A stretch of 64,000 bases of DNA from Lactobacillus sp. ESL0791 (GTDB lineage: Bacteria > Bacillota > Bacilli > Lactobacillales > Lactobacillaceae): assembly GCF_029433255.1 (NCBI RefSeq), contig NZ_JAQTHU010000001.1, forward strand, positions 310,001-374,000, in the 5' to 3' direction. The notes beneath the pieces are model-generated. The model was not told where the DNA came from, did not search any database, and saw only the letters and a program-made list of their open reading frames with translations. A program made the translations under genes and the position numbers. This document shows positions 6,541-39,890 of the stretch, piece after piece (position 1 is the first letter of the stretch; each line of letters begins with the position of its first letter).

Positions 6541-6840
6541 CCTCCGTGAAATCGTGAGGCAAAGAAAAAGCCCTTTGCCCCTAAACTTAATCAAGGACGA
6601 AAGGCTTTTTCCGCGGTACCACCTAAATTGCCCAAAACTTGGGCCAACTCAATAAAGCACAAACATGCTTTACCAGCGAGGTAACGTACTGGCTACGTCT
6701 CTGCTTACTCTAATAATTTTATTTCAGCGAGCTGCTAAAAGTGTTTTTCAATAATTCAGGGTCTGCTAACTTCTCACTATCGTTAACTCACTTGAAAGAG
6801 GTAAATTATCTACTCTTCTTTTTCATTGCATTTAAATTTA
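6541..6840 (-). promoter_or_regulatory. T-box leader of asnA
   Basis: On the minus strand the T-box core GGTGGTACCGCGG is at 6623-6611, followed by a terminator hairpin (about 6610-6565, arms AAAAAGCC/GGCTTTTT) that competes with the antiterminator. A long structured stem I region lies upstream. A promoter TTGCAT-17-TTTAAT (6875-6870 and 6852-6847) places the RNA start near 6840. T-box RNAs bind the matching uncharged tRNA and read through; tRNA-Asn is inferred from the downstream gene. Confidence 0.93.
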
Positions 6841-6957: not shown

Positions 6958-7443
6958 ATGACCGAAACGGCAATTTTTTATCTTATTATTGATGCTTTAT
7001 TGATTGCGTACGCCTGCTACAGTTGGTACTGGCAGGCAAATATCGAATTGCGGGGAACTTATCGCAGTTCGTCAATTATTTGGGCGCTGATTTTCATCTG
7101 GATTGGGTTTATGTGGAATTACCTGGAAAAGGGTGATCAGAGTCTTAACTTTTTCTTAGCGCTGTTTTTACTGACTAGCATTATCGATGGCTTCGCTGGT
7201 TTTGCACCTAAGCGGATTGTTGTTTCCGGCTATTTTAAGCGAACGATTCGCTATTCCGAAGTTGTCACTGTAACTTTGATCGCAATGCCCGGTGTGAAAA
7301 AAGAAAACGTAATTTGTCTGGTGACGACAAAGAAAAACCGGCAGTATTATATCCGCTTCTCTCAGGGCGTGAGCAAGATTGTTTCCGTCTTAAAGAAGTA
7401 TGTCAAACATGATATTCAGATTGAGATTCAGAACATCATGTAA
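6958..7443 (+). CDS. Small integral membrane protein, unknown
   Basis: 161 residues with three hydrophobic segments in the first 85 (about 6-24, 40-55, 63-82) and a soluble C-terminal half of about 75 residues ending in IQIEIQNIM. The layout resembles Lactobacillus DUF5673-like membrane proteins, but I cannot assign a family with confidence. AGGAG lies 7 bases before the ATG and TATAAT at 6924-6929. It is divergent from asnA and ends in a strong hairpin that is repeated after the next gene. Confidence 0.75.
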   Translation: MTETAIFYLIIDALLIAYACYSWYWQANIELRGTYRSSSIIWALIFIWIGFMWNYLEKGDQSLNFFLALFLLTSIIDGFAGFAPKRIVVSGYFKRTIRYSEVVTVTLIAMPGVKKENVICLVTTKKNRQYYIRFSQGVSKIVSVLKKYVKHDIQIEIQNIM

Positions 7444-7457
7444 GAATAATAGATGAC

Positions 7458-7491
7458 GAAAAAGCAAGCACTGTTGCAGGTGCTTGTTTTT
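7458..7491 (+). terminator. Terminator, first copy of a 29-bp repeat
   Basis: Hairpin CAAGCAC / GTGCTTG (7465-7471 with 7480-7486) and a T run. The 29 bases 7458-7486 are identical to 9706-9734 after the next gene. Confidence 0.85.
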
Positions 7492-7600
7492 AAAATACGC
7501 ATTAGCATTATTTGTAATCGTATAGATAGCAGTGTGGTTAGTCACAATTGTGCTACAATTAATAAAAATCGTATATTTAGTTTTCTATTAGGAGAAGATT

Positions 7601-9691
7601 ATGAAAACAAAAAAACGTTTTAAATTAGTTGCAGTGAGCCTAATTGCTTTGCTAGCTGGTGGCGTCAGCCTCACTTTTACCGATCAGCCGGTTGCTGCTG
7701 CACATCGTACTACAATTAGTTCTAATCTAACAGGAACAGATGGGCAGTGTATGTGGATATTTAATAAGAAAACGGCCACTTTAACGATTAAACCTGGAAC
7801 TAAGGGCGGCATGATGTCTTCAACGCCAGTTTATAAGTGGGCTTCGACTGGAAAGAATTTGGTCGGCGTTAAACACCTGGTTTTCACTAAGGGCGTTGCG
7901 TTAGCTCCAGATTCTAAAAGTAAATTTAGTGTGCCAGAAATTGACGGGGATGATGACAATGAAATTAAAACTCCGCTGGATGACTTGCAGGATGTTTCCG
8001 GGCTAAGTAACCTTGATACTAGCCAAGTAACTAATATGAGCGGCCTTTTTTCTAACACCGGAATTAAGAGCCTTGATCTGACGGGATTAGATACCAGTCA
8101 TGTTACCGACATGAGTGAAATGTTTGCCGATTGTCAACAGCTTGCAAACTTGAATTTTGGCGGTATTGATACCAGTCATGTGACGACGATGGCGAGAATG
8201 TTTTATGAATGTGGCAAGCTGAAACAGCTTGACCTTGGCGGTCTTAATACCGCTGGTCTTCTTGATATGAGCAACATGTTTAACTATTCCGGGTTGGAGC
8301 AGGCCGATCTATCTAAATTGAATACTAGTCAGGTAACGGATATGTCGGAGCTTTTCTCTGAATGCTATCATTTGCAAAGTATTAATCTTGGTAATATTGA
8401 TACGGCAAATGTTACCAACATGAGCAACATGTTTGCTGAGTGTCCTAAGCTGTCCAGCATTGATGTGTCAAAATTAAATACCAGTAAGGTTACGGAAATT
8501 AATGGAATGTTTCAGAATAGTACGAGTTTGACTAATCTTGATTTACATAGCTTTGATACGCACAACATGACAGAAATGGGCTATGTTTTTAATGGCTGCA
8601 GTAACTTAGAAAGTGTTAATCTGTCTGGTTGGGATACAAGCAAGGTCACTTTTGCTTGGAACCTGTTTGCTAATTGCAAGAACTTAAAAGCAATCGATCT
8701 GTCTAACCTTGATTTTAGTAATGCGACTGATGTTCGAGGAATGTTTGCAAATTGTTTTTCGTTGTCTAAGCTGGACTTGACAAAATTTAATATCAGCAAG
8801 GCTCAGAAAACGGCGGGGCTCCTTGATAATACGGGTGACTTTGCCGGTTTTACGCTAATACTGGGGAAGTACCCGCTACCAAGCGACAATCAGGTTGGTA
8901 TTAATATGAATCATATCCAAATAGCTAATAGTTCCAATTCTTCAGAGCTGACGACTGCCGAACTGCAAAAGGATGTAACTGTCCCTGCAGACCATGGCAA
9001 AACTTATGTAATGTCGCGGACGCCTGTTGCCCAAGTTACAAAAAAGTTAACGCATAATGCTTATTTATATGATGAAAATGGCCAGCGCCGTGATAAACAC
9101 ATAGTTTTGCTGGCTGGTTCAGCGGTTGTGACTTATGGCAGCCCAGTAACAATTAATGGCAAAAAATATTATGATTTTGGTAATCAAACTTATCTTGATG
9201 CGGCCGATGTTGCTGATAAAACCACACGCAAGCTCAAGAAAACTACTAGCGGGATAAATTTTGACAAGTTTCGTAACCTGCGTAAAGCCGAAATTATTCC
9301 TGGTAATTCGAATCATGGCTCAAATGTCTATGTGCTTTATATGAATGGCCAGTTGTATACAGCTAAAAATATGGTGGTAGTTGATGAGCAGGACTATGTT
9401 TTTAGCCCAGATTACCGAATTAATCAAACCGAATTTAACGGTGAACGACAGAATCTTATTCATAATGCTTATCAATATAACAGGAAGGGTCAACGAATAG
9501 GCAAAAAGTTATTGGCTAAGGATGGTGATGATTTCTACACCTTTGGTGCACCGATTAAGATTAAAGGCAAAAAGTATTACAAGGTTAATGCTGCAGTTCC
9601 GAATACGATCTATGGTTATTCTAGTTTAGCTTTTAATAAATATCTTTATATTAAGGCGGCTAATCTAATTGACATGGGTAAGAGTAAATAA
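7601..9691 (+). CDS. S-layer-anchored BspA-like leucine-rich-repeat surface protein
   Basis: A 696-residue secreted protein. Residues 1-34 form a signal peptide ending in VAAA. From about 145 to 390 there are about ten repeats of 23-25 residues with the pattern LDTSxVTxMSxMFxxCxxLxxLDL, the DUF285/BspA-like family used by host-associated bacteria for adhesion. The C-terminal part holds two SLAP-type units: THNAYLYDENGQRRDKHI near 487 and IHNAYQYNRKGQRIGKKL near 620, each followed by G-x-KYY. SLAP domains hold Lactobacillus surface proteins on the wall non-covalently, so no LPxTG is needed and none is present. RBS GGAG 6 bases before ATG; TACAAT at 7554-7559. An adhesin role is inferred from the family. 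Confidence 0.9.
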   Translation: MKTKKRFKLVAVSLIALLAGGVSLTFTDQPVAAAHRTTISSNLTGTDGQCMWIFNKKTATLTIKPGTKGGMMSSTPVYKWASTGKNLVGVKHLVFTKGVALAPDSKSKFSVPEIDGDDDNEIKTPLDDLQDVSGLSNLDTSQVTNMSGLFSNTGIKSLDLTGLDTSHVTDMSEMFADCQQLANLNFGGIDTSHVTTMARMFYECGKLKQLDLGGLNTAGLLDMSNMFNYSGLEQADLSKLNTSQVTDMSELFSECYHLQSINLGNIDTANVTNMSNMFAECPKLSSIDVSKLNTSKVTEINGMFQNSTSLTNLDLHSFDTHNMTEMGYVFNGCSNLESVNLSGWDTSKVTFAWNLFANCKNLKAIDLSNLDFSNATDVRGMFANCFSLSKLDLTKFNISKAQKTAGLLDNTGDFAGFTLILGKYPLPSDNQVGINMNHIQIANSSNSSELTTAELQKDVTVPADHGKTYVMSRTPVAQVTKKLTHNAYLYDENGQRRDKHIVLLAGSAVVTYGSPVTINGKKYYDFGNQTYLDAADVADKTTRKLKKTTSGINFDKFRNLRKAEIIPGNSNHGSNVYVLYMNGQLYTAKNMVVVDEQDYVFSPDYRINQTEFNGERQNLIHNAYQYNRKGQRIGKKLLAKDGDDFYTFGAPIKIKGKKYYKVNAAVPNTIYGYSSLAFNKYLYIKAANLIDMGKSK

Positions 9692-9705
9692 AGTATTAGA
9701 CAGTT

Positions 9706-9741
9706 GAAAAAGCAAGCACTGTTGCAGGTGCTTGCTTTTTT
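9706..9741. terminator. Bidirectional terminator, second copy of the 29-bp repeat
   Basis: Same hairpin as at 7458-7486, here with longer flanking A and T runs, so it works for both the BspA-like gene and the converging metzincin gene. Confidence 0.85.
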
Positions 9742-9745
9742 TAAC

Positions 9746-10504
9746 TTATTTATAAAGTATGGCCAAACTTTGAATGTATTCCTGATCTAAGATTGGCTTG
9801 GTAGAATCTGCCTTGTATTTAGTATTGGCGTCATAGGTAGCCTCTGCATTCATGATGCTAGAAGCAGGGTTATGCTCTAATCCTAGTGCGTGTCCCAGTT
9901 CGTGGGCAAATATTATTTTGTAATAATGCTGCTCCTGCCCCAGTGTATGGCTGCCTGCCTTAGTGAAAATGGCATTGATTGAATTCAGGTAGATACTCAT
10001 AGCGGCATGCTCGTTGAGGTAGAGCCCCTTAGATTGCTCGTGGCTGTAGCTAATACTGGTATCTGCACAATGACTGTTATTTTCATCATTGTTAGTTGTA
10101 TCCACAACTGTAATGTCGGCATCACCGACTGTTGCGACCAGTTTGACCAAGTCCAAGTCGTTAATTTGTTTAATGACTTGTTCAAAAACTTCTTGCTGCT
10201 CGGACGGCAGGGCGGTATCGTCATAAGTAATTGTGGTTTTAGCAAAAGCATGTGTAGACAAATGGTATTGACTGATTATTTCAGGGGTAAAGTAGCTAAT
10301 TTTCGGTGTAGCAGCGATTGTTGCGGTCGTTTCATCTTCGTACAATTCCGTTTGTTTTTTGACGGCACGCTGTTTCTTCTTTTTCCGTTTTTGCTTTTTC
10401 GTTTTTTTAGCCGCGACTACGGTATTTGCCTGCATAGTGGTCAGCGGCAATGCACCGCTGATCGTTAATACAGCCATCAGCGAAATTAGATAATTCTTTT
10501 TCAT
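9746..10504 (-). CDS. Secreted metzincin-like zinc protease (matrixin type)
   Basis: About 252 residues with an N-terminal signal peptide (to about residue 32, VVAA) and then a very basic stretch. The zinc site HELGHALGLEH starts near residue 201, followed by SIMN, which fits the Met-turn of metzincins (M10-like). These features predict a secreted zinc endopeptidase. AGGAG lies 11 bases before the ATG at 10504 and 8 before a TTG at 10507; either could start it. A paralogue with the same zinc motif is at 59.7-60.5 kb. The substrate is unknown; both lie near surface-protein genes. Confidence 0.85.
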   Translation of the reverse strand: MKKNYLISLMAVLTISGALPLTTMQANTVVAAKKTKKQKRKKKKQRAVKKQTELYEDETTATIAATPKISYFTPEIISQYHLSTHAFAKTTITYDDTALPSEQQEVFEQVIKQINDLDLVKLVATVGDADITVVDTTNNDENNSHCADTSISYSHEQSKGLYLNEHAAMSIYLNSINAIFTKAGSHTLGQEQHYYKIIFAHELGHALGLEHNPASSIMNAEATYDANTKYKADSTKPILDQEYIQSLAILYK

Positions 10505-10534
10505 CAAAAATCAATCTCCTTTAAGTAATGTTTG

Positions 10535-11992
10535 CTATAGAATTGGCGATAGCATTCGGGAAAAACTCTGCAGAGTTTTAAGCCAGCGCCCCTGATTCTG
10601 GATCATTTCTTGTGTCAGAAGCGTTGAATCTTTCATGTCATCTTCAAAGGACGCTGCCACTTTTTTTGTAAATTCTTTGTCATAAAAAACCGCAATATCT
10701 TCAAAATTGAGGTCATAGGAGCGGTAGTCCTGGTTCATTGAACCGACAGTTGAAAACTTATCATCGACCACTATCGTCTTGGCGTGAATAAAGCCCTTAT
10801 TGTAAATATAAATTTTGACACCGTAACGTGATAATTCGTTGGCATACCACTGCGTTGCGCGGTAAATGAAGGGATGGTCGGGCATGCAGGGAATCATGAT
10901 ACGTAAATCAACGCCTGACATAGCAATTGTCTGCCAGGTAGCAAACATTGAATCATCGGGAATCAAGTAAGGGGTTTGAATCCACAGCCGTTTTTTCGCT
11001 AAGAGCATCAAGCGGGAAACACTGTTGCGCATGTACGGCTCATAGCGATCCGGACCATCCGACACAATTTGCGTTGCCACATCGCCGGGATGAATTTCAC
11101 TTTCGTCAAAATCGGGAAAGAACAGTTGGCTGAAAGTGATCACCTGATTGTCTTTTTGGATGGAAGCATTCCAGTCCATGACAAAACGTTCCTGCAAAAG
11201 AAGTGAAGCCGAACCCACAATCCGCACCTGGCTGTCGCGCCAGTAACCGAATTTCTTTTTGCGGCTGAGGTACTGGTCGCCGATATTAAAACCGCCGGTC
11301 CATGAAGTTTTACCGTCGATTACAACGATTTTGCGGTGCAGATGGTAATTGATCCGGTATCTGGAAATCATGTTGCGCGAGGTAATGAACGGCAAAACCT
11401 GCCCGCCAACTTTGCATAATTGGTTGAACCAAGCTTTGGTTGCACCTAATGAGCCCCAGGCATCGTAAAGCACACGTACCTGCAAACCCTCCTTGGCTTT
11501 TTTAATCAGCAGGTTAAGAAATTCATTGCCGATATCATCATTATAGAAAGTGTAAAATTCAATGTTGATTGTCTGCTTAGCGTGCTCAATATCCCTGATC
11601 ATGTCGTTGAACATTGGCCGACCGTCGGTATAAAGCTTAACTTGATTGTTTTTGCTTAAAGGTGACTCGCCGTTTTTGTTAAGCAGGCGAATCACCATAT
11701 CCGCCTTGTTAGAAGTGTCGGACGGACTGGTTTTTCGTGGCGCCTGCGTGATCGATCTCTGCACATTGCGCAGGCCGATATGGTGCTGCCTGTTGATGGC
11801 AAAGAGGTTTTCCTGCGAAATTCCCCGGCCGAAAAAGCCGTAGGCAATCATGCCGATTACGGGAAAAACAAGTAAAATAATTAACCAGGCCCAAGTGGTG
11901 GAAACGGACCGGCGCCGGTGAAAGACGATATAAAAAGCTAAGATTGTGTTGGTGATAACTAGTATGCGCCAGATATTATGTAGCAGTGACAC
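10535..11992 (-). CDS. cls: Cardiolipin synthase
   Basis: A 485-residue phospholipase-D-family membrane enzyme that joins two phosphatidylglycerols. Two N-terminal membrane helices (about 5-22 and 33-54) and two HKD motifs: His219-Lys221-Asp226 in HLHRKIVVID and His404-Lys406-Asp411 in HAKTIVVDD. It starts with GTG; GGAGG lies 6 bases before it. Full length for the family. The gene is followed at short range by the secreted metzincin-like gene on the same strand. Confidence 0.95.
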   Translation of the reverse strand: MSLLHNIWRILVITNTILAFYIVFHRRRSVSTTWAWLIILLVFPVIGMIAYGFFGRGISQENLFAINRQHHIGLRNVQRSITQAPRKTSPSDTSNKADMVIRLLNKNGESPLSKNNQVKLYTDGRPMFNDMIRDIEHAKQTINIEFYTFYNDDIGNEFLNLLIKKAKEGLQVRVLYDAWGSLGATKAWFNQLCKVGGQVLPFITSRNMISRYRINYHLHRKIVVIDGKTSWTGGFNIGDQYLSRKKKFGYWRDSQVRIVGSASLLLQERFVMDWNASIQKDNQVITFSQLFFPDFDESEIHPGDVATQIVSDGPDRYEPYMRNSVSRLMLLAKKRLWIQTPYLIPDDSMFATWQTIAMSGVDLRIMIPCMPDHPFIYRATQWYANELSRYGVKIYIYNKGFIHAKTIVVDDKFSTVGSMNQDYRSYDLNFEDIAVFYDKEFTKKVAASFEDDMKDSTLLTQEMIQNQGRWLKTLQSFSRMLSPIL

Positions 11993-33250: not shown

Positions 33251-33822
33251 CCTTTATATTTAAACGGGCAGCTTTCAAGGTGGTCATTGATCAAGCCAAC
33301 TCCTTGTAAAAAAGAATAGGTGGTCACGGGGCCAACGAAGGAAAAACCATCTTTTTTCATTTGCTTGGCAATGCGTGTGGCTAATTCACTAGTTGGCGGA
33401 ATATCTGCCAATGTTTCTGGATGGTGAATAATGGGATTAACAATAAAACTCTGCAAGTATTTGGTAAAACTGCCGTGCTTAGCTTGAATCATCAGCACAG
33501 TTTTGGCATTGTTGATTGCTGCCGTGATTTTCATCTTATTGCGGATGATCGCCTTGTTTTCAAGCAGCATTTGCAGATCATCAGCGGTCATTTGGGCGAC
33601 TTCTTCGGGGACAAAATTTTTGAATGCCTGCCGGAAGTTTTCGCGTTTGTGCAAAACAATTGCCCAGTTTAGCCCCGATTGAAATGCCTCAAGAACCAGC
33701 ATTTCGTAGAGATAATTATCAGCCAAATTCAGCTTGCCCCACTCATGATCATGGTAGTTCTGCATTAATTTGTCTTGGCTTCGTGCCCACGGACAGCGTA
33801 AATCATTATTAATTTGTTCCAT
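33247..33822 (-). CDS. tag: 3-methyladenine DNA glycosylase I
   Basis: A 191-residue helix-hairpin-helix glycosylase removing 3-methyladenine. Seen: RCPWARSQ (Cys10), YHDHEWG, LYEMLVLEAFQSGLNW with the active-site Glu, FVGPVTTYSFLQGVGLINDH and HLESCPF, giving the Cys/His zinc ligands at both ends of the chain. Full length. Confidence 0.96.
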   Translation of the reverse strand: MEQINNDLRCPWARSQDKLMQNYHDHEWGKLNLADNYLYEMLVLEAFQSGLNWAIVLHKRENFRQAFKNFVPEEVAQMTADDLQMLLENKAIIRNKMKITAAINNAKTVLMIQAKHGSFTKYLQSFIVNPIIHHPETLADIPPTSELATRIAKQMKKDGFSFVGPVTTYSFLQGVGLINDHLESCPFKYKG

Positions 33823-33921
33823 ATGTTTGTTTTCTCCTAATGTCTTTAATTTTAGCCCTTATATAAAAATACGCAAAAAAGCAAAATACCTCTTTCATAA
33901 GTTTAAACTTTCTGCTATTAT

Positions 33922-34125
33922 TGCTATGGACTAATCATTTGATTGCTTAAGGGAGTTTAGGTTATGCATGCATGTGGAAAAGCAATATTCGTTAGTAGTG
34001 CTTTTGTAAGGAGATCCGCCGACTCTCTTAGCAATTTTATGCTTGTTCAGTTTTTAATTAAAGGTGTCGAAAATAGGCTTAACGTAGTTCACGTTCGTGT
34101 TTGACGTTAAGCTTATTTTTTGCAT
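33922..34125 (+). promoter_or_regulatory. Structured leader of the first phnD-like gene, with terminator (class unknown)
   Basis: TATTAT at 33916-33921 would start the RNA near 33928. A long-range stem pairs 33942-33956 with 34022-34035 (14 pairs, one bulge, one wobble). Directly 3' of its first arm is TTAGGTTATGCATG, then a hairpin 33978-33984 / 33999-34005. A terminator stem follows (34072-34084 with 34105-34117, 13 pairs, one wobble) and T run. This fits a riboswitch or attenuator layout. It does not match TPP, SAM, purine, preQ1, lysine, glycine or T-box patterns that I know. Confidence 0.6.
33964..34104 (+). CDS. Upstream frame 1 in the phnD leader
   Basis: 46 codons from ATG 33964 to TGA 34102-34104, with GGGAG eight bases before the ATG. 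The ATG lies in the conserved TATGCA of the leader and the TGA is the last three bases of the terminator loop. The product ends NRLNVVHVRV, similar to the end ERLDALHFCVSP of the frame in the second leader. Translation through it would cover the terminator's 5' arm. It may be a regulatory peptide or only an RNA feature. Confidence 0.35.
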   Translation: MHACGKAIFVSSAFVRRSADSLSNFMLVQFLIKGVENRLNVVHVRV

Positions 34126-34165
34126 TTTCGGGTTGCTATTTTTCAATGTCATGTAGGAGGGCATA

Positions 34166-35086
34166 ATGAAAAAATTTAAAAAAGTATTAGTAGGGTTCGT
34201 TGCTGTGTTGACTGCCCTGGTTGCAACTGCTTGTTCAAGCAAAAGTTCAACTAAGGACAGTTCTACGCCCAAATCTTTAAATGTTCAGTTTGTACCTAGT
34301 AACGCTGCTACCAAATTGGAAGCACGGGCTAAGCCGCTGGAGAAAATGCTCTCAAAACGATTGGGCATTCCAGTTCATGTGACGATGTCAACTGACTACA
34401 ATACGGTGGTTGAAGCCATGAAGTCGAAGAAAGTTGATGTCGGTTTCTTGCCTTCAGATGCTTATATCTTAGCGCACAAACAGCACGCTGCCGATTTGCT
34501 GCTGCAAGCGGAGCGTTACGGTATTAAGCAGCCGGGCGGCAAATTAACCAAGAGCCTTGTTAATTATTATCGTGCTGAGATTTTAGTTAAAAAGGGTTCA
34601 AAGATTAAAAGCTGGAAGGATCTTAAGGGTAAGAGCATTTCAGTTCAGAACCCAACCTCTACTTCCGGCTACATTTTTCCTGTAGCTGAATTAAAGGAAA
34701 AGGGTCTTAATGTGCCTAAGAGCTGTAAGTTAGTTACCGTCACTGGCCATGATCAGGCAGTTTTAAACGTTCTTAACGGCGATACTGATGCTGCCTTTGT
34801 CTTTGAAGATGCACGGACAATCGTACAAAAGGACAATCCTAAGATCATGAGTGAAGTTGTTCCAATTTACTTTACACAGAAAATTCCGAACGATACTATC
34901 TCAGTTTCACCATCAATGTCGAAGGCTTTCCGCAAAAAATTGGCAGATGCTTTCATTGCTATTGGTAAGTCCAAGGAAGGTAAGAAGGTAATTGAGAGCG
35001 TATATAATCATGAAGGTTATGTTTACGCTAAAGATAGTGACTTCGATATTATTCGGAAATACGACAAAATAGTAGCCGGAAAATAG
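34166..35086 (+). CDS. phnD: Phosphonate-type ABC transporter binding lipoprotein 1
   Basis: 306 residues. Signal peptide with lipobox VATAC (Cys23), so it is a lipoprotein on the outer membrane face. The mature part has PhnD-family features: [59 protein letters not shown] and [14 protein letters not shown]. Ligands of the family include phosphonates, phosphite and phosphate-like anions; no C-P lyase genes are nearby, so the substrate is open. RBS AGGAGG. It is very similar to the next gene along its whole length. Confidence 0.9.
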   Translation: MKKFKKVLVGFVAVLTALVATACSSKSSTKDSSTPKSLNVQFVPSNAATKLEARAKPLEKMLSKRLGIPVHVTMSTDYNTVVEAMKSKKVDVGFLPSDAYILAHKQHAADLLLQAERYGIKQPGGKLTKSLVNYYRAEILVKKGSKIKSWKDLKGKSISVQNPTSTSGYIFPVAELKEKGLNVPKSCKLVTVTGHDQAVLNVLNGDTDAAFVFEDARTIVQKDNPKIMSEVVPIYFTQKIPNDTISVSPSMSKAFRKKLADAFIAIGKSKEGKKVIESVYNHEGYVYAKDSDFDIIRKYDKIVAGK

Positions 35087-35096
35087 AGATAAATCT

Positions 35097-35124
35097 TTGT
35101 TTCAGCACAGATTTCTGGTATTAT
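35097..35124 (+). promoter_or_regulatory. Promoter of the second phnD leader
   Basis: TTGTTT (35097-35102), 16 bases, TATTAT (35119-35124), just after the first phnD stop codon. So the second gene has its own transcript start. Confidence 0.6.
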
Positions 35125-35332
35125 TTATGTAGCAAATAATAATTGAATTTTATGGAGGCAGTAAGGGGCTATGCAGGTATACAGAGAAGTAAAATTTGCT
35201 GTAAATTTTTTCTTGGCCCTGGCAGCTGTATCCCTTGAAAGTTTAGTATTTGCTGGCTTGCTAATTAAAATTATTTATATTGAAAGACTTGATGCGCTTC
35301 ACTTTTGTGTTTCGCCTTGAGTCTTTTTTTCT
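35125..35332 (+). promoter_or_regulatory. Structured leader of the second phnD-like gene, with terminator
   Basis: A stem 35132-35138 / 35247-35253 closes the domain. Inside, AAGGG (35163-35167) and ATACAG (35179-35184) pair with the contiguous CTGTATCCCTT (35226-35236), leaving an 11-base bulge with GCTATGCAGG. The terminator stem is 35283-35296 / 35313-35326 (one mismatch, two wobbles) and a T run. The 16-base terminator loop matches the first leader at 13 positions. The core stems differ in sequence from leader 1 but keep the order of parts. Confidence 0.6.
35171..35320 (+). CDS. Upstream frame 2 in the phnD leader
   Basis: 49 codons from ATG 35171 to TGA 35318-35320. The ATG is in the bulge motif TATGCA; the TGA is in the terminator's 3' arm. 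The product is hydrophobic in the middle and ends ERLDALHFCVSP. GGAGG lies 12 bases upstream and AAGGGG two bases upstream of the ATG, so initiation may depend on the fold. Confidence 0.3.
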   Translation: MQVYREVKFAVNFFLALAAVSLESLVFAGLLIKIIYIERLDALHFCVSP

Positions 35333-35365
35333 GATTTTATTTTTTGAAGCCATTTAGGAGGACGT

Positions 35366-36295
35366 ATGAAAAAACTTAAGAAAATATTGGCAGGGCTTGC
35401 TGTTGGCCTAGCTGCGTTTAGTTTGGCAGCTTGTTCAGCCAATAAAAATTCAAGCAAGGAAGATTACACACCCAAGTCGCTGAATGTGCAGTTTGTGCCT
35501 AGTCAGGCAGCGGATAAGCTCGAATCCCGGGCCAAGCCGCTGGAAAAGATGCTTTCGAAAAGGCTGGGGATTCCGGTTCATGTTTCAATGTCGACCGACT
35601 ATAACACGGTTGTGGAAGCTATGAAATCTAAAAAAGTTGATGTTGGCTTTTTGCCGCCTGATGGCTATATTCTGGCTCACAAGCAAAAAGCAGCTGATTT
35701 GCTGCTGCAGGCAGAACGCTACGGTGTTAAGCAGCCCGGTGGTAAACGCACGAAAAATTTGGTTAAGTTTTATCATTCAGAAATTTTAGTCAAAAAGGGT
35801 TCAAAAATTAAGAGCTGGAAAGACTTAAAAGGTAAGAGCATTTCCATTCAAAATCCGACTTCTAGTGCTGGATATGTATTTCCGATTGCCGAATTAAAAG
35901 AAAAGGGCCTGAATGTTCTTAAAAGCTGTAAGTTAGTTACGGTAACGGGGCAGGATCAGGCGGTTTTGAACGTTTTAAATGGTGACACCGATGCAGCTTT
36001 TGTCTTTGAGGATGCGCGGACAATTGTCCAAAAGGATAACCCGAAGATTATGAGCCAGGTGGTGCCGATTTACTTTACTAAACCGATTCCTAACGATGTT
36101 ATTGGCGTTACGCCAAATATTTCTAAGAAGTTCAAAGATAAATTGGCCAAAGCCTTTATTTCGATTGCCAAATCAAAAGAGGGCCACAAAGTAATCGAAA
36201 GCATTTATACCCATGAAGGCTATGATTATGTGAAGGACAGCGATTTTGATATTGTCCGTAAATACGACAAAATTATCGAATCAACAAAGAAGTAA
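35366..36295 (+). CDS. phnD: Phosphonate-type ABC transporter binding lipoprotein 2
   Basis: 309 residues, lipobox SLAAC. Mature part nearly parallel to the first copy: [58 protein letters not shown]. Differences cluster in places that could touch ligand (SDAY versus PDGY). AGGAGG ribosome site. Both the gene and its leader appear to come from a tandem duplication of about 1.2 kb. Downstream are the ATPase and two permeases. Confidence 0.9.
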
Positions 36296-36324: not shown

Positions 36325-37086
36325 ATGGCAGAACCAATTATTGAATTAAACGGTGTAAAAAAGGTTTACGACAAGGGAGTTGTCGGCCTAAAAGATATCA
36401 ATCTGACAATTAATCAGGGCGAGTTTGTTGTGATTGTTGGCTTATCCGGCGCGGGCAAATCAACTCTGCTGCGGTCAATCAACCGCTTGATTGATATCAC
36501 TGCGGGTGATATTTTAATTGCCGGCGAATCGATTACCAAAGCTAAAGGTAAAAAGCTGCGGCTGCTTAGACGAAATATCGGCATGATTTTTCAGAGCTTT
36601 AACTTGGTTAAACGTTCAAGCGTTTTGCGCAATGTTCTTACGGGCCGGGTTGCCTATTATCCTACTTGGAAAAGCACGCTGAATTTGTTTAGCAGTGAGG
36701 ACAAAAACCGTGCTTATGAGGCTTTGAAGCAGGTTGGGCTGGAAGATAAAGTTTATACCCGGGCTGATCAATTATCCGGCGGGCAGCAGCAACGGGTCGC
36801 TATTGCCCGTGTTTTGACGCAAAATCCACAGATTATTTTAGCGGATGAGCCGACAGCCTCCCTTGATCCGCAAACTTCTCACCGAATCATGGAAGATTTA
36901 AAGATGCTGAATGAGGATCACGGCATGACGGTGGTCATTAACCTTCATAGTGTTGCCCTTGCCCGTGAATTTGGCAAGCGGGTCATTGGGATTCGCGGCG
37001 GTGAAGTCATTTATGACGGTGCAATGGCTGATACACCTGAAGCTATTTTCACTAAAATTTATAATGGCGGTGACGAAAATGACTGA
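36325..37086 (+). CDS. phnC: Phosphonate-type ABC transporter ATPase
   Basis: 253 residues. Walker [10 protein letters not shown] (near 38), Q-loop FQSFNLV, signature LSGGQQQR, Walker B IILADEP and the H-loop INLHS. Start taken at ATG 36325 (MAEPIIEL), nine bases past GGGGTG; GTG 36313 and ATG 36316 overlap that site. Overlaps phnE1 by eight bases, so translation is coupled. Confidence 0.94.
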
Positions 37087-37879
37087 TAGTGAGCAAAATT
37101 TAGCAGTTCTGCCCAAGAAAAAGCTGCACGTCATGAACCTAATCTGGCTGCTGGTGTTTATCGTTGGACTAGTTATTTCTACCAATGAAACGCATACAAA
37201 TCTTAGCGCATTGTTTGCAAACTTTGATCAGTTCGGTGATATTTTTGTGCAAATGCTGCATCCCGATTGGTCCTATCTTGGCAGCGTCATTCCATTGCTG
37301 CTGGAAACAATTAAAATGGCGGTGCTGGGAACAATTATTGGTTCGGTGTTGGCTTTTGTTTATTCGTTGTTGATTGCCAGGAATATTGTTAAAAATAAGA
37401 TTGTAACCAGTGTTTTGCGCTTTATCATGAATATTATCAGGACAATTCCCGACCTCCTTCTTGGGGCCATTTTCGTTGCGATTGTGGGGATTGGTCCCGT
37501 TGCCGGAATCTTGGCTCTTTCAATTTTTACATTTGGCGTGGTCGTCAAGCTTTTCTATGAGGCAATTGAAACGATTGATCCGGGTCCGATTGAAGCCTTG
37601 ACAGCCGTTGGTGCCAATAAGCTGCAGATCATCATGTTCGCGGTGCTGCCGCAGGTCATGACCTATTTTATTTCTTACTGTTTGTATGCGTTTGAGATCA
37701 ATGTGCGGGCTTCGACTGTTCTTGGTTATATTGGTGCCGGCGGCATTGGTCTGTATCTGCAGCAGACATTGCAGGTCTTTGACTATGGGAAAACCGGAAC
37801 AATTATTATCGTAATTATTTTAGTCGTGGTGCTGATTGACTACGTTTCGTCTAAATCACGGGAGGCGTTGATGGACTAA
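37079..37879 (+). CDS. phnE: Phosphonate-type ABC transporter permease 1
   Basis: 266 residues, about six membrane segments. The EAA-type loop is seen as [31 protein letters not shown] split over the chain near 165-200. GGTGA lies before ATG 37079; the frame is open upstream inside phnC but has no ribosome site. Stop TAA shares one base with the next ATG. Confidence 0.92.
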
Positions 37880-38691
37880 TGAATACTAGTATAAAAAAAT
37901 TACCAGCTAAACCCGTTGATTATAAAAAGCGCATTAAATATTCCGTTCTGACAATTTTGACGATTGCACTTATTATTTGGTCTTGCACTGGCATTGATTT
38001 TGGCGGAATTAAAGCAACTGCCGGACAAATCGCCGGGGCCATCTTTGCGGGGATTTTTCATCCTGATTGGTCTTATGTTTATAATGGCAGCGGTGAAGAC
38101 CTAGTTTCAGAACTTTGGCAGACAATTTGTATCGCCTTTCTGGGTACTTTTATTTCTGCAATTATCTCGCTGCCCTTTGCCTTTTGGGCCGCCCATACCA
38201 AACATAAGCATTGGTATGTTTCTCGCAGCGGGAAAATTGTACTGGCGGTTATTCGGTCATTTCCGGAAATCGTGTTGGCGCTAATGTTTATTAAGGCCGT
38301 TGGGCCGGGATCTGCTGCCGGAGTTTTGGCTTTAGGTTTTCACTCAGTGGGGATGCTGGCAAAGCTCTTTTCTGAAGAAATTGAAAACCTTGACGACGGG
38401 CCAAATGAGGCGGTGGCTGCCGCCGGTGGTTCTAAATTTAACATTACCATGTTTGCGACCTTGCCGGATTTGCTGCCGGCGCTGATCTCGAATACTTTGT
38501 ACCGGTTCGATGTTTCGATCCGTTCAGCTTCGGTGTTGGGCTTAGTTGGTGCCGGCGGTATTGGCTATCCCCTGATCATTGCCTTGCAGTACCGGCAATG
38601 GAACCGCGTTGGCATTATTCTTTTGGGAATCATCGTTATGGTAGTTGTAATTGATTGGATTTCTGGTGCGATTCGGAAAAAGTTGATTTAG
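37879..38691 (+). CDS. phnE: Phosphonate-type ABC transporter permease 2
   Basis: 270 residues, six membrane segments. EAA-type loop near 165-195 (NEAVAAAGGSKFNITMFATLP), then GLVGAGGIGYPL, also found in permease 1 as [12 protein letters not shown]. Last gene of the transporter operon. Shortly after its stop lies an IS30 element, so the original operon end may be on the far side of that element. Confidence 0.92.
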   Translation: MNTSIKKLPAKPVDYKKRIKYSVLTILTIALIIWSCTGIDFGGIKATAGQIAGAIFAGIFHPDWSYVYNGSGEDLVSELWQTICIAFLGTFISAIISLPFAFWAAHTKHKHWYVSRSGKIVLAVIRSFPEIVLALMFIKAVGPGSAAGVLALGFHSVGMLAKLFSEEIENLDDGPNEAVAAAGGSKFNITMFATLPDLLPALISNTLYRFDVSIRSASVLGLVGAGGIGYPLIIALQYRQWNRVGIILLGIIVMVVVIDWISGAIRKKLI

Positions 38692-38724: not shown

Positions 38725-39890
38725 ATTGAACACTGAGCGTAAATCTTGGTGTTTCAACTAAAAAGCCCATTGGCTCCTTCTGTTAGAATGTAATTATCAC
38801 CAAACACTCAGAAAGGATTCCAATGGACCAATTACATTCTAACATGAATATTCGCCAAAAAGGCAAACATCTCACTTTTGAGGATCGTGTGACAATCCAA
38901 GTTTTACGCAAACAAGGTAAGTCTTTACGTTTTATTGCCCGTGAACTGAATTGTTCACCCAGTACTGTTATGTATGAGCTCAGAAAGGGGCAAATCAGCC
39001 TTTATCATGGCAAAAAGCACCGCTATGATGCAAAAACTGCTCAGATAAAATATGAAGATAATCGTGCTAATTGCGGTCGTAAACTTGATTTTTTAGTTAA
39101 ACATAGGTTCATTGATTACGTAGAGCAAAATTTCTTTGGTTCTCACAAGTGGTCACTTGATGCTATCTGGGGCGAGGCAACAGCTACTGGTAAATTTACC
39201 AGCAAGCAGGCTGTTTGCTCTAAAACTTTGTATAACTACGTTGAACGTGGCTTGCTTAAAATTAAGCCAACTGACTTACCTGAAAAATTGAGCCGTAATA
39301 CTAAGATTAAACGTGTTCGTAAAAACAAAAAGAAGTTAGGCCGTAGTATTGAAGAGCGCGATCCAGCAATTGCTAAACGGTTGGAATTTGGTCACTGGGA
39401 ATGTGATCTAGTTCTTGGTAATAAGACCAAGGACGATGAAGTTCTACTTACCTTCTACGAACGAATGACACGCATGTTCTTTATCATCAAGATTAAAGAC
39501 AAAACTGCTGCTAGTGTCATGGCAGCTTTAGAAAACTTACGTCAGGAATACGGTGAACATTGGAATGAAATCTTTAAGACGATTACTACTGATAACGGGT
39601 CTGAGTTTGCAGATTTATCCCAGTTGGAACAAATTTCTGAAACGCTAGTTTACTTTGCTCATCCCTATACCGCTTGTGATAAAGGTGGAGTTGAATGCCA
39701 TAATCGTTTAATCAGGCGCTTCATTCCCAAAGGACAGGCAATTAAGAAATGGGCTCTCACCCAAATCTCAGAAATCCAAGAATGGTGCAATGGACTTCCA
39801 AGAAAAATTCTCGCTTACCATACTCCAGAAGAGCTATTTGACCGGGAGCTTGATCGGATTTACCAAGTTTCTGCTTAAAAAGTGTTCAAT
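38725..39890 (+). mobile_element. IS30-family insertion sequence
   Basis: About 1166 bp. Ends: ATTGAACACT at 38725-38734 and its complement AGTGTTCAAT at 39881-39890 (identity extends two bases further out). Further inward the match is partial, as usual in IS30. One intact transposase gene fills it. No clear target duplication could be fixed. A 13-base direct repeat AAAAAACTAGTTT lies 19-31 bases outside on each side (38694-38706, 39909-39921). Confidence 0.85.
38823..39878 (+). CDS. IS30-family transposase
   Basis: 351 residues, intact. N-terminal helix-turn-helix (TIQVLRKQGKSLRFIAREL and NCSPSTVMYELRKG, about 27-60). DDE residues: Asp in HWECDLVLGNK, Asp in TTDNGSEF and Glu in KGGVECHNRLIRRF. 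The element may therefore still move. Its ATG lies about 90 bases inside the left end. Confidence 0.95.
   Translation: MDQLHSNMNIRQKGKHLTFEDRVTIQVLRKQGKSLRFIARELNCSPSTVMYELRKGQISLYHGKKHRYDAKTAQIKYEDNRANCGRKLDFLVKHRFIDYVEQNFFGSHKWSLDAIWGEATATGKFTSKQAVCSKTLYNYVERGLLKIKPTDLPEKLSRNTKIKRVRKNKKKLGRSIEERDPAIAKRLEFGHWECDLVLGNKTKDDEVLLTFYERMTRMFFIIKIKDKTAASVMAALENLRQEYGEHWNEIFKTITTDNGSEFADLSQLEQISETLVYFAHPYTACDKGGVECHNRLIRRFIPKGQAIKKWALTQISEIQEWCNGLPRKILAYHTPEELFDRELDRIYQVSA

Follow-up and report, generated by a model that had tools for sequence, protein, structure and literature searches.

Our results suggest that two neighbouring phnD-like genes of a Lactobacillus are each preceded by a leader that probably acts as a translation-dependent transcription attenuator of the pyrBI kind. 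An upstream open reading frame (uORF) in each leader runs into an intrinsic terminator that stands before phnD. Comparison with relatives shows that this frame is kept open to the terminator without constraint on its amino acids, and that its 3' half co-varies with the Shine-Dalgarno sequence and the 5' end of the predicted RNA.

The window, i.e., the whole stretch of 64,000 nucleotides that was analysed, comes from a Lactobacillus genome of 2.43 Mb. The leaders and phn genes described here lie on its + strand. The gene order is phnD 1 (34166..35086), phnD 2 (35366..36295), a phnC ATPase (36325..37086; TIGR02315) and two phnE permeases (37082-37879 and 37879-38691; TIGR01097), and a separate promoter box and leader precede each phnD. 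Both phnD products are substrate-binding lipoproteins matching TIGR01098 (phosphate/phosphite/phosphonate-type binding proteins); their score under the strict PhnD model is below the cut-off, and the closest solved structure by sequence is the phosphite-binding PtxB. Directly 3' of the phn cluster lies a transposase-like ORF (38823-39878), which we take to be of the IS30 type.

Leader 1 extends from about 33928 to 34121. Its extended -10 promoter (TGCTATTAT, 33913..33921, with the TATTAT box at 33916-33921) is found by reading the sequence and by a consensus scan and is kept in relatives; the transcript is predicted to start near 33928. The 5' strand of a long-range hairpin (33927..33957, from the fold and the co-variation tests) contains the Shine-Dalgarno sequence GGGAG (33951-33955) of uORF 1, and the 3' strand (34021..34049) lies opposite this sequence and the RNA 5' end. 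The motif GG(T/C)TATGCA(T/G)G starts at 33960, and its ATG opens uORF 1 (33964..34104), whose 46 codons (MHACGK...NVVHVRV) end with TGA at 34102-34104, within terminator 1 (34070..34121; hairpin about 34070-34119, T-run 34116-34121).

Leader 2 (about 35131 to 35330, predicted start near 35131) repeats this arrangement. Its extended -10 promoter (TGGTATTAT, 35116..35124, box at 35119-35124) was recognised by reading and is likewise kept in relatives. Hairpin 2 is formed by a 5' strand at 35130..35171, which holds GGAGG (35154-35158) and AAGGGG (35163-35168), and a 3' strand at 35214..35255. The motif starts at 35167 and opens uORF 2 (35171..35320; 49 codons, MQVYRE...ALHFCVSP), whose TGA (35318-35320) falls in the 3' arm of terminator 2 (35282..35330; hairpin about 35282-35327, T-run 35324-35330). 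The ribosome-site spacing of uORF 2 is poor, with GGAGG 12 nt and AAGGGG 2 nt from the ATG.

Direct reading and folding confirm most of what an earlier note on this DNA had described: twin leaders with a TATTAT box, a closing stem, the shared motif and a terminator, and frames of 46 and 49 codons that open at the ATG of the motif and stop inside the terminator. The note had placed the terminators 45-60 bases before the phnD ribosome site; they are present, but the T-runs end 33 nt (leader 1) and 25 nt (leader 2) away from it. The TATGCA motif occurs in both leaders of the window but is kept only in part in relatives. The likeness between the two peptide ends exists as well, but it lies in DNA that also forms the 5' arm and loop of the terminator.

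The folding energies of the leaders are lower than those of 200 out of 200 dinucleotide shuffles (z -5.1 for leader 1, -3.1 for leader 2), and both minimum-energy folds include the long-range closing stem. The terminator hairpins reach -21.3 kcal/mol (leader 1) and -17.7 kcal/mol (leader 2), and a T-run follows each. A simple consensus scan lists the promoter of leader 1 (9/12) and misses that of leader 2; in total it reports 7 promoter-like sites versus 4.1 in shuffles. The same scan lists neither leader terminator, probably because its rule is limited to loops of 3-8.

At gathering level, an Rfam search of the window leaves the leaders without a match; the sole match is a T-box leader at 6590-6835 on the - strand (112.7 bits). 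With E values up to 10, a search over 33800-35400 yields nothing credible at the leaders, and the weak matches look like noise. A T-box identity for the leaders was rejected (14 bits against a cut-off of 93), and so was a known riboswitch class, for which no Rfam covariance model matched. The earlier statement that neither leader could be assigned to a known riboswitch class stands.

Homologous leaders, as the earlier note had proposed, could be collected from other Lactobacillus. The best 80 of 93 matches in a scan for phnD represent 79 loci, 61 of them titled Lactobacillus, 17 Staphylococcus or Macrococcus, and 1 Faecalicatena. An extended -10 box can be recognised at 50 of the 73 phnD sites in the closer set (L031-L076, L085 and the window). 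At 46 of these 50 an ORF reaching the terminator was found by a blind rule, which picked the best ribosome site plus start codon in each leader. For three more (L045, L076, L085) a TTG or GTG start at the homologous place was set by hand, the uORF of L045 requiring TTG; one site, L048_4067, has the box without such a uORF and was left out. A uORF with terminator is hence present at 49 of 50 box-bearing sites, which gives a set of 49 leaders (47 distinct sequences from 45 loci). Their uORFs have 28 to 58 codons and start with ATG (44), GTG (4) or TTG (1), with an ATGCA opening in 28 of the 49. Every uORF stop lies in the interval from 12 nt upstream to 72 nt downstream of the point where the terminator starts: 12 are at or before this point, 30 inside the terminator and 7 beyond its end.

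The 23 sites without a box are a mixed group. Five are additional phnD genes with merely 23 to 141 nt of upstream space. Three sites of the johnsonii group (L032, L033, L035) have a uORF ending at a terminator, and in ten bee-gut copies (L038_2563, L050_4746 and their kin) such a uORF is located further upstream; L054_4738, L058_4803 and L062_4753 have none. The leader element seems to have multiplied together with phnD, with up to four leaders in a single locus. This locus (L046, 2423-6909) carries four tandem phnD genes, and two of the leaders (before 3607 and 4760) are shortened and box-less, keeping an ATG frame that stops in the terminator but no Shine-Dalgarno sequence.

Some further loci deserve mention. 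L060 and L066 contain a separate bee-gut phnD locus (about 7000-9050) with the same kind of leader, adjoining LacA/LacB/RpiB-like genes (one, in L066, confirmed by profile, the others by resemblance), which may be a hint to the substrate. Two phnD paralogues in L089 (5986-11956) are more distant; their neighbours are three Bmp/PnrA-like lipoproteins, of which Pfam confirmed one. L077, titled Faecalicatena absiana, has a Lactobacillus-like phnD with a leader of the same type; it is possible that this assembly is mislabelled or contaminated.

As far as we checked, the leader occurs before phnD only. A pattern for the 5' part (two mismatches allowed) matched in 11 of 41 genomes; ten of these are phnD leaders of the genus, and the eleventh comes from a genome that is not of the genus and gave no match to phnD. 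The pattern is not sensitive, as it missed 15 of 25 genomes of the genus, including that of the window. With a covariance model of the 3' part, G000-G036 yielded 35 matches at E < 1e-3, all about 200 nt or less upstream of phnD, as judged by eye from the phnD positions in these genomes. Three weaker matches were inspected and rejected; they resemble other terminators, and phnD was not seen in the stretch. In five genomes from other genera of the order the leader was not recognised in the 330 nt before phnD: four of the sites have no terminator, and in L131 a TTG frame crosses a terminator-like hairpin. Of 34 phnD sites that are more distant (paralogues in Lactobacillus, the delbrueckii group, Staphylococcus, Macrococcus and L077), one, L077, has a uORF ending in a terminator.

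The ribosome site of the uORF appears to be paired in most leaders. The minimum-energy folds of 44 of the 49 leaders show the RNA 5' end as well as the Shine-Dalgarno block base-paired to the 75 nt immediately upstream of the terminator. Clades differ in the register of the stem, and for this reason we swapped 5' and 3' segments among 30 hand-picked leaders. Native combinations average -23.3 kcal/mol and re-paired ones -18.6 kcal/mol, and none of 20,000 permutations was as good. Taken by part, 4 of 20,000 (5' end) and 15 of 20,000 (Shine-Dalgarno) were as good as native, versus 7869 to 11701 of 20,000 for three control segments. Only 5 of 30 leaders, however, beat every one of their own swapped 3' segments, and the thermodynamic occlusion is modest (probability of an unpaired Shine-Dalgarno of 0.26, versus 0.35 in shuffles).

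Co-variation by column is weak. The closing stem of the main clade is 90% paired with zero pairs changed on both sides, and the whole structure of this clade is distinct from slid partners (94 vs 28 to 50% paired) but not from shuffles. Both sides changed in 4 of the 15 pairs (6 cells) that make up the Shine-Dalgarno helix of the bee clade; as many cells were found in 3 and as many pairs in 80 of 500 shuffles, but partners slid by one column give 5 pairs and 8 cells, exceeding the native stem. The covariation that the earlier note had suggested looking for is therefore seen in the re-pairing test and only weakly by column.

A co-varying hairpin over a ribosome site could also be the target of a trans-acting factor. 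An RNA-binding protein or a small RNA would then open or close the hairpin, and translation of the uORF would relay this to the terminator. The relay part shares the support of the attenuator explanation, but we noticed no common single-stranded word in the alignments that we viewed, and we consider such a factor unlikely.

One could also argue that the leaders are ligand-binding riboswitches whose folding by a metabolite governs the terminator or the start of the uORF, with the frame being secondary. The stable folds, the terminator ahead of a transporter gene and two elements kept in many relatives (5' AAYRAACG and GTTCGTTT) would fit this proposal, which the earlier note had made in the form of ligand-controlled folding. 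However, alignments of relatives show no conserved sequence in the interior of the leader and no core beyond the closing stem. Because the interior is not conserved and Rfam offers no class, a small-molecule riboswitch is unsupported. We also looked for an antiterminator in 30 leaders: the 5' arm of the terminator has no excess of upstream complementarity (mean z +0.38; 3/30 below -1.65). A riboswitch would, moreover, leave an open frame without peptide constraint unexplained, and it seems decidedly unlikely to us.

Evidence concerning the frame comes from 16 disjoint pairs of related leaders. Substitutions in the uORF are spread equally over the three codon positions (140/133/151; p 0.56), whereas phnD in the same pairs shows 257/142/1367 changes; 38 overlapping pairs give 327/310/330. 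The synonymous conservation that the earlier note had considered is thus not seen. Yet the frame itself is kept. Indels are in frame in 7 of 8 cases inside the uORF versus 6 of 41 in the flanking leader DNA (Fisher p 1.4e-4). With an equal number of random changes, the chances of the 16 frames staying open multiply to about 10^-10 (10^-7.7 for substitutions alone); this product is biased, as the pairs were taken from leaders that bear a uORF, though 49 of 50 promoter-bearing leaders do. The arrangement goes beyond chance, since shuffled uORFs are open in just 9% of cases on average and the frame recurs in 49 leaders; over 45 uORFs, the +1 frame holds 129 stops and the +2 frame 180. The last codons are less strict, because 4 of 38 comparisons show one-base indels close to where the uORF ends (L032, L070), and in a T-run the bee clade differs by one base. 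The altered frames still reach the terminator.

A leader peptide, whether one that stalls its ribosome like those of tnaC or erm or one that senses an amino acid like that of trp, would also call for a uORF with a ribosome site that reaches the terminator, as found blind in 46 of 50 sites, and V-R-F words do recur in the peptides before the terminator. These words, however, coincide with the pairing element GUUCGUUU. Residue runs of 3 or 4 occur in 4 of 28 uORFs, the longest being 4, and no amino acid exceeds 1.54 times its expectation. With equal change at the codon positions, no long runs and no enriched residue, the peptide-sensing attenuator offered as the other option in the earlier note is not supported; the lack of a conserved antiterminator also speaks against it, and we regard it as very unlikely. 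That the uORF is simply a small gene, placed with a terminator of its own between phnD and the gene upstream, so that phnD would be transcribed by readthrough, is highly improbable: B. subtilis terminators do closely trail stop codons (PMC7858274), but amino-acid conservation is absent, 37 of 49 frames run into or past the terminator, and the arrangement was seen at phnD only, as far as checked.

Translation-dependent attenuation remains our preferred explanation. The earlier note had proposed that a ribosome on the upstream frame blocks the terminator, and the geometry, the conservation of the frame and the co-varying hairpin argue for it. RNA polymerase would first transcribe the ribosome site of the uORF. 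A ribosome that loads while the 3' half is still unmade would translate the uORF, and its footprint would cover the 5' arm of the terminator when the polymerase arrives. The covered terminator would fail and phnD would be transcribed, from leader 2 probably together with phnC and phnE. If the ribosome comes late or not at all, the 3' half of the uORF would pair with the RNA 5' end and the Shine-Dalgarno sequence, shut the site and leave the terminator to fire. The hairpin would restrict loading to the time before its own 3' strand exists.

We infer that a ribosome translates the uORF and thereby suppresses termination, and that the leader senses a race between the loading ribosome and the polymerase. 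It is possible, although we hold it only tentatively, that this Firmicute genus has a class of attenuators reading this race directly, so that a polymerase slowed at low nucleotide supply switches the importer on. The uORF would close its own ribosome site, the chance for loading would be brief, and only a loaded ribosome would rescue the transcript. As the signal, a shortage of nucleotides or phosphorus slowing the polymerase appeals to us most, but it is a guess, drawn only from the type of transporter and from analogy.

The strongest doubt about this mechanism comes from B. subtilis, where the polymerase is reported to outrun the ribosome (PMC7858274, PMC9226507) and terminators sit just a few nucleotides past stop codons (PMC7858274). 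In E. coli, termination fell from about 90% to under 10% when a stop codon 28 bp ahead of a terminator was brought to a distance of 5 bp (PMC4824070), and pyrBI attenuation is described as needing a ribosome close behind the polymerase (PMC4824070, PMC5021804). If the polymerase outruns the ribosome in Lactobacillus as in B. subtilis, a stop codon close by would not necessarily suppress the terminator, and the mechanism would then require a pause in the leader. A pause-like motif, TTNTTT, is found in 19 of 30 leaders versus 6.2 in shuffles; the tested interval of both leaders in the window is without it.

Since transcription reportedly runs ahead of translation in B. subtilis, attenuators that depend on a ribosome close behind the polymerase would be a surprise in Firmicutes. 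A leader family that keeps a frame open without keeping its peptide, across dozens of Lactobacillus genomes, would offer a natural way to test coupling in this group. It would also help to find out what the phnD-like transporters of lactobacilli are for.

In searches of the open-access literature we found no description of a Lactobacillus phnD leader, and the available parts of PMC11109978, PMC8632094, PMC2965389, PMC2864571 and PMC7266159 likewise do not contain it. Judged by their sequences, the phnD leaders appear to be a variant form of ribosome-dependent attenuation for which no earlier description turned up there. The amino-acid leader peptides of the trp/his type also attenuate transcription through a translating ribosome. 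They carry runs of regulatory codons. Unlike the phnD leaders, they have terminators more than 20 bp past the leader gene, and competing structures (both in PMC4824070). The vmlR leader of B. subtilis resembles ours in being a Firmicute uORF within a hairpin followed by an intrinsic terminator, but according to PMC9226507 it uses antibiotic stalling, an anti-antiterminator and an antiterminator; the phnD leaders have no conserved antiterminator, and their uORF reaches the terminator. Another similar leader is the fthC uORF motif of Streptococcus, a Lactobacillales leader with a Shine-Dalgarno sequence, an AUG, an in-frame stop and a terminator, for which the authors suggest the speed of uORF initiation as the control (PMC11109978). 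Its stop often lies in a hairpin before the terminator, and it precedes a different gene (PMC11109978).

The closest likeness is to pyrBI of E. coli, whose leader ORF (pyrL) is of similar length (135 bp) and contains the intrinsic terminator (PMC4824070, PMC5021804). A leader ORF up to or through the terminator is found in all 49 phnD leaders of our set (from which L048_4067, without a uORF, was left out), there is no competing antiterminator in the 30 leaders examined, and comparison suggests that, as in pyrBI, translation matters and the peptide sequence does not. Two further marks of the pyrBI leader are a pause of the polymerase at a U-rich tract upstream of the terminator and a response to UTP. 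It differs from the phnD leaders in that there the 3' part of the uORF lies opposite the uORF's own ribosome site, and the host is a Firmicute with a phn-type transporter gene. Because pyrBI controls pyrimidine synthesis genes and our leaders precede phnD, phnC and phnE, we do not file them as pyrBI attenuators but as leaders that would work like one.
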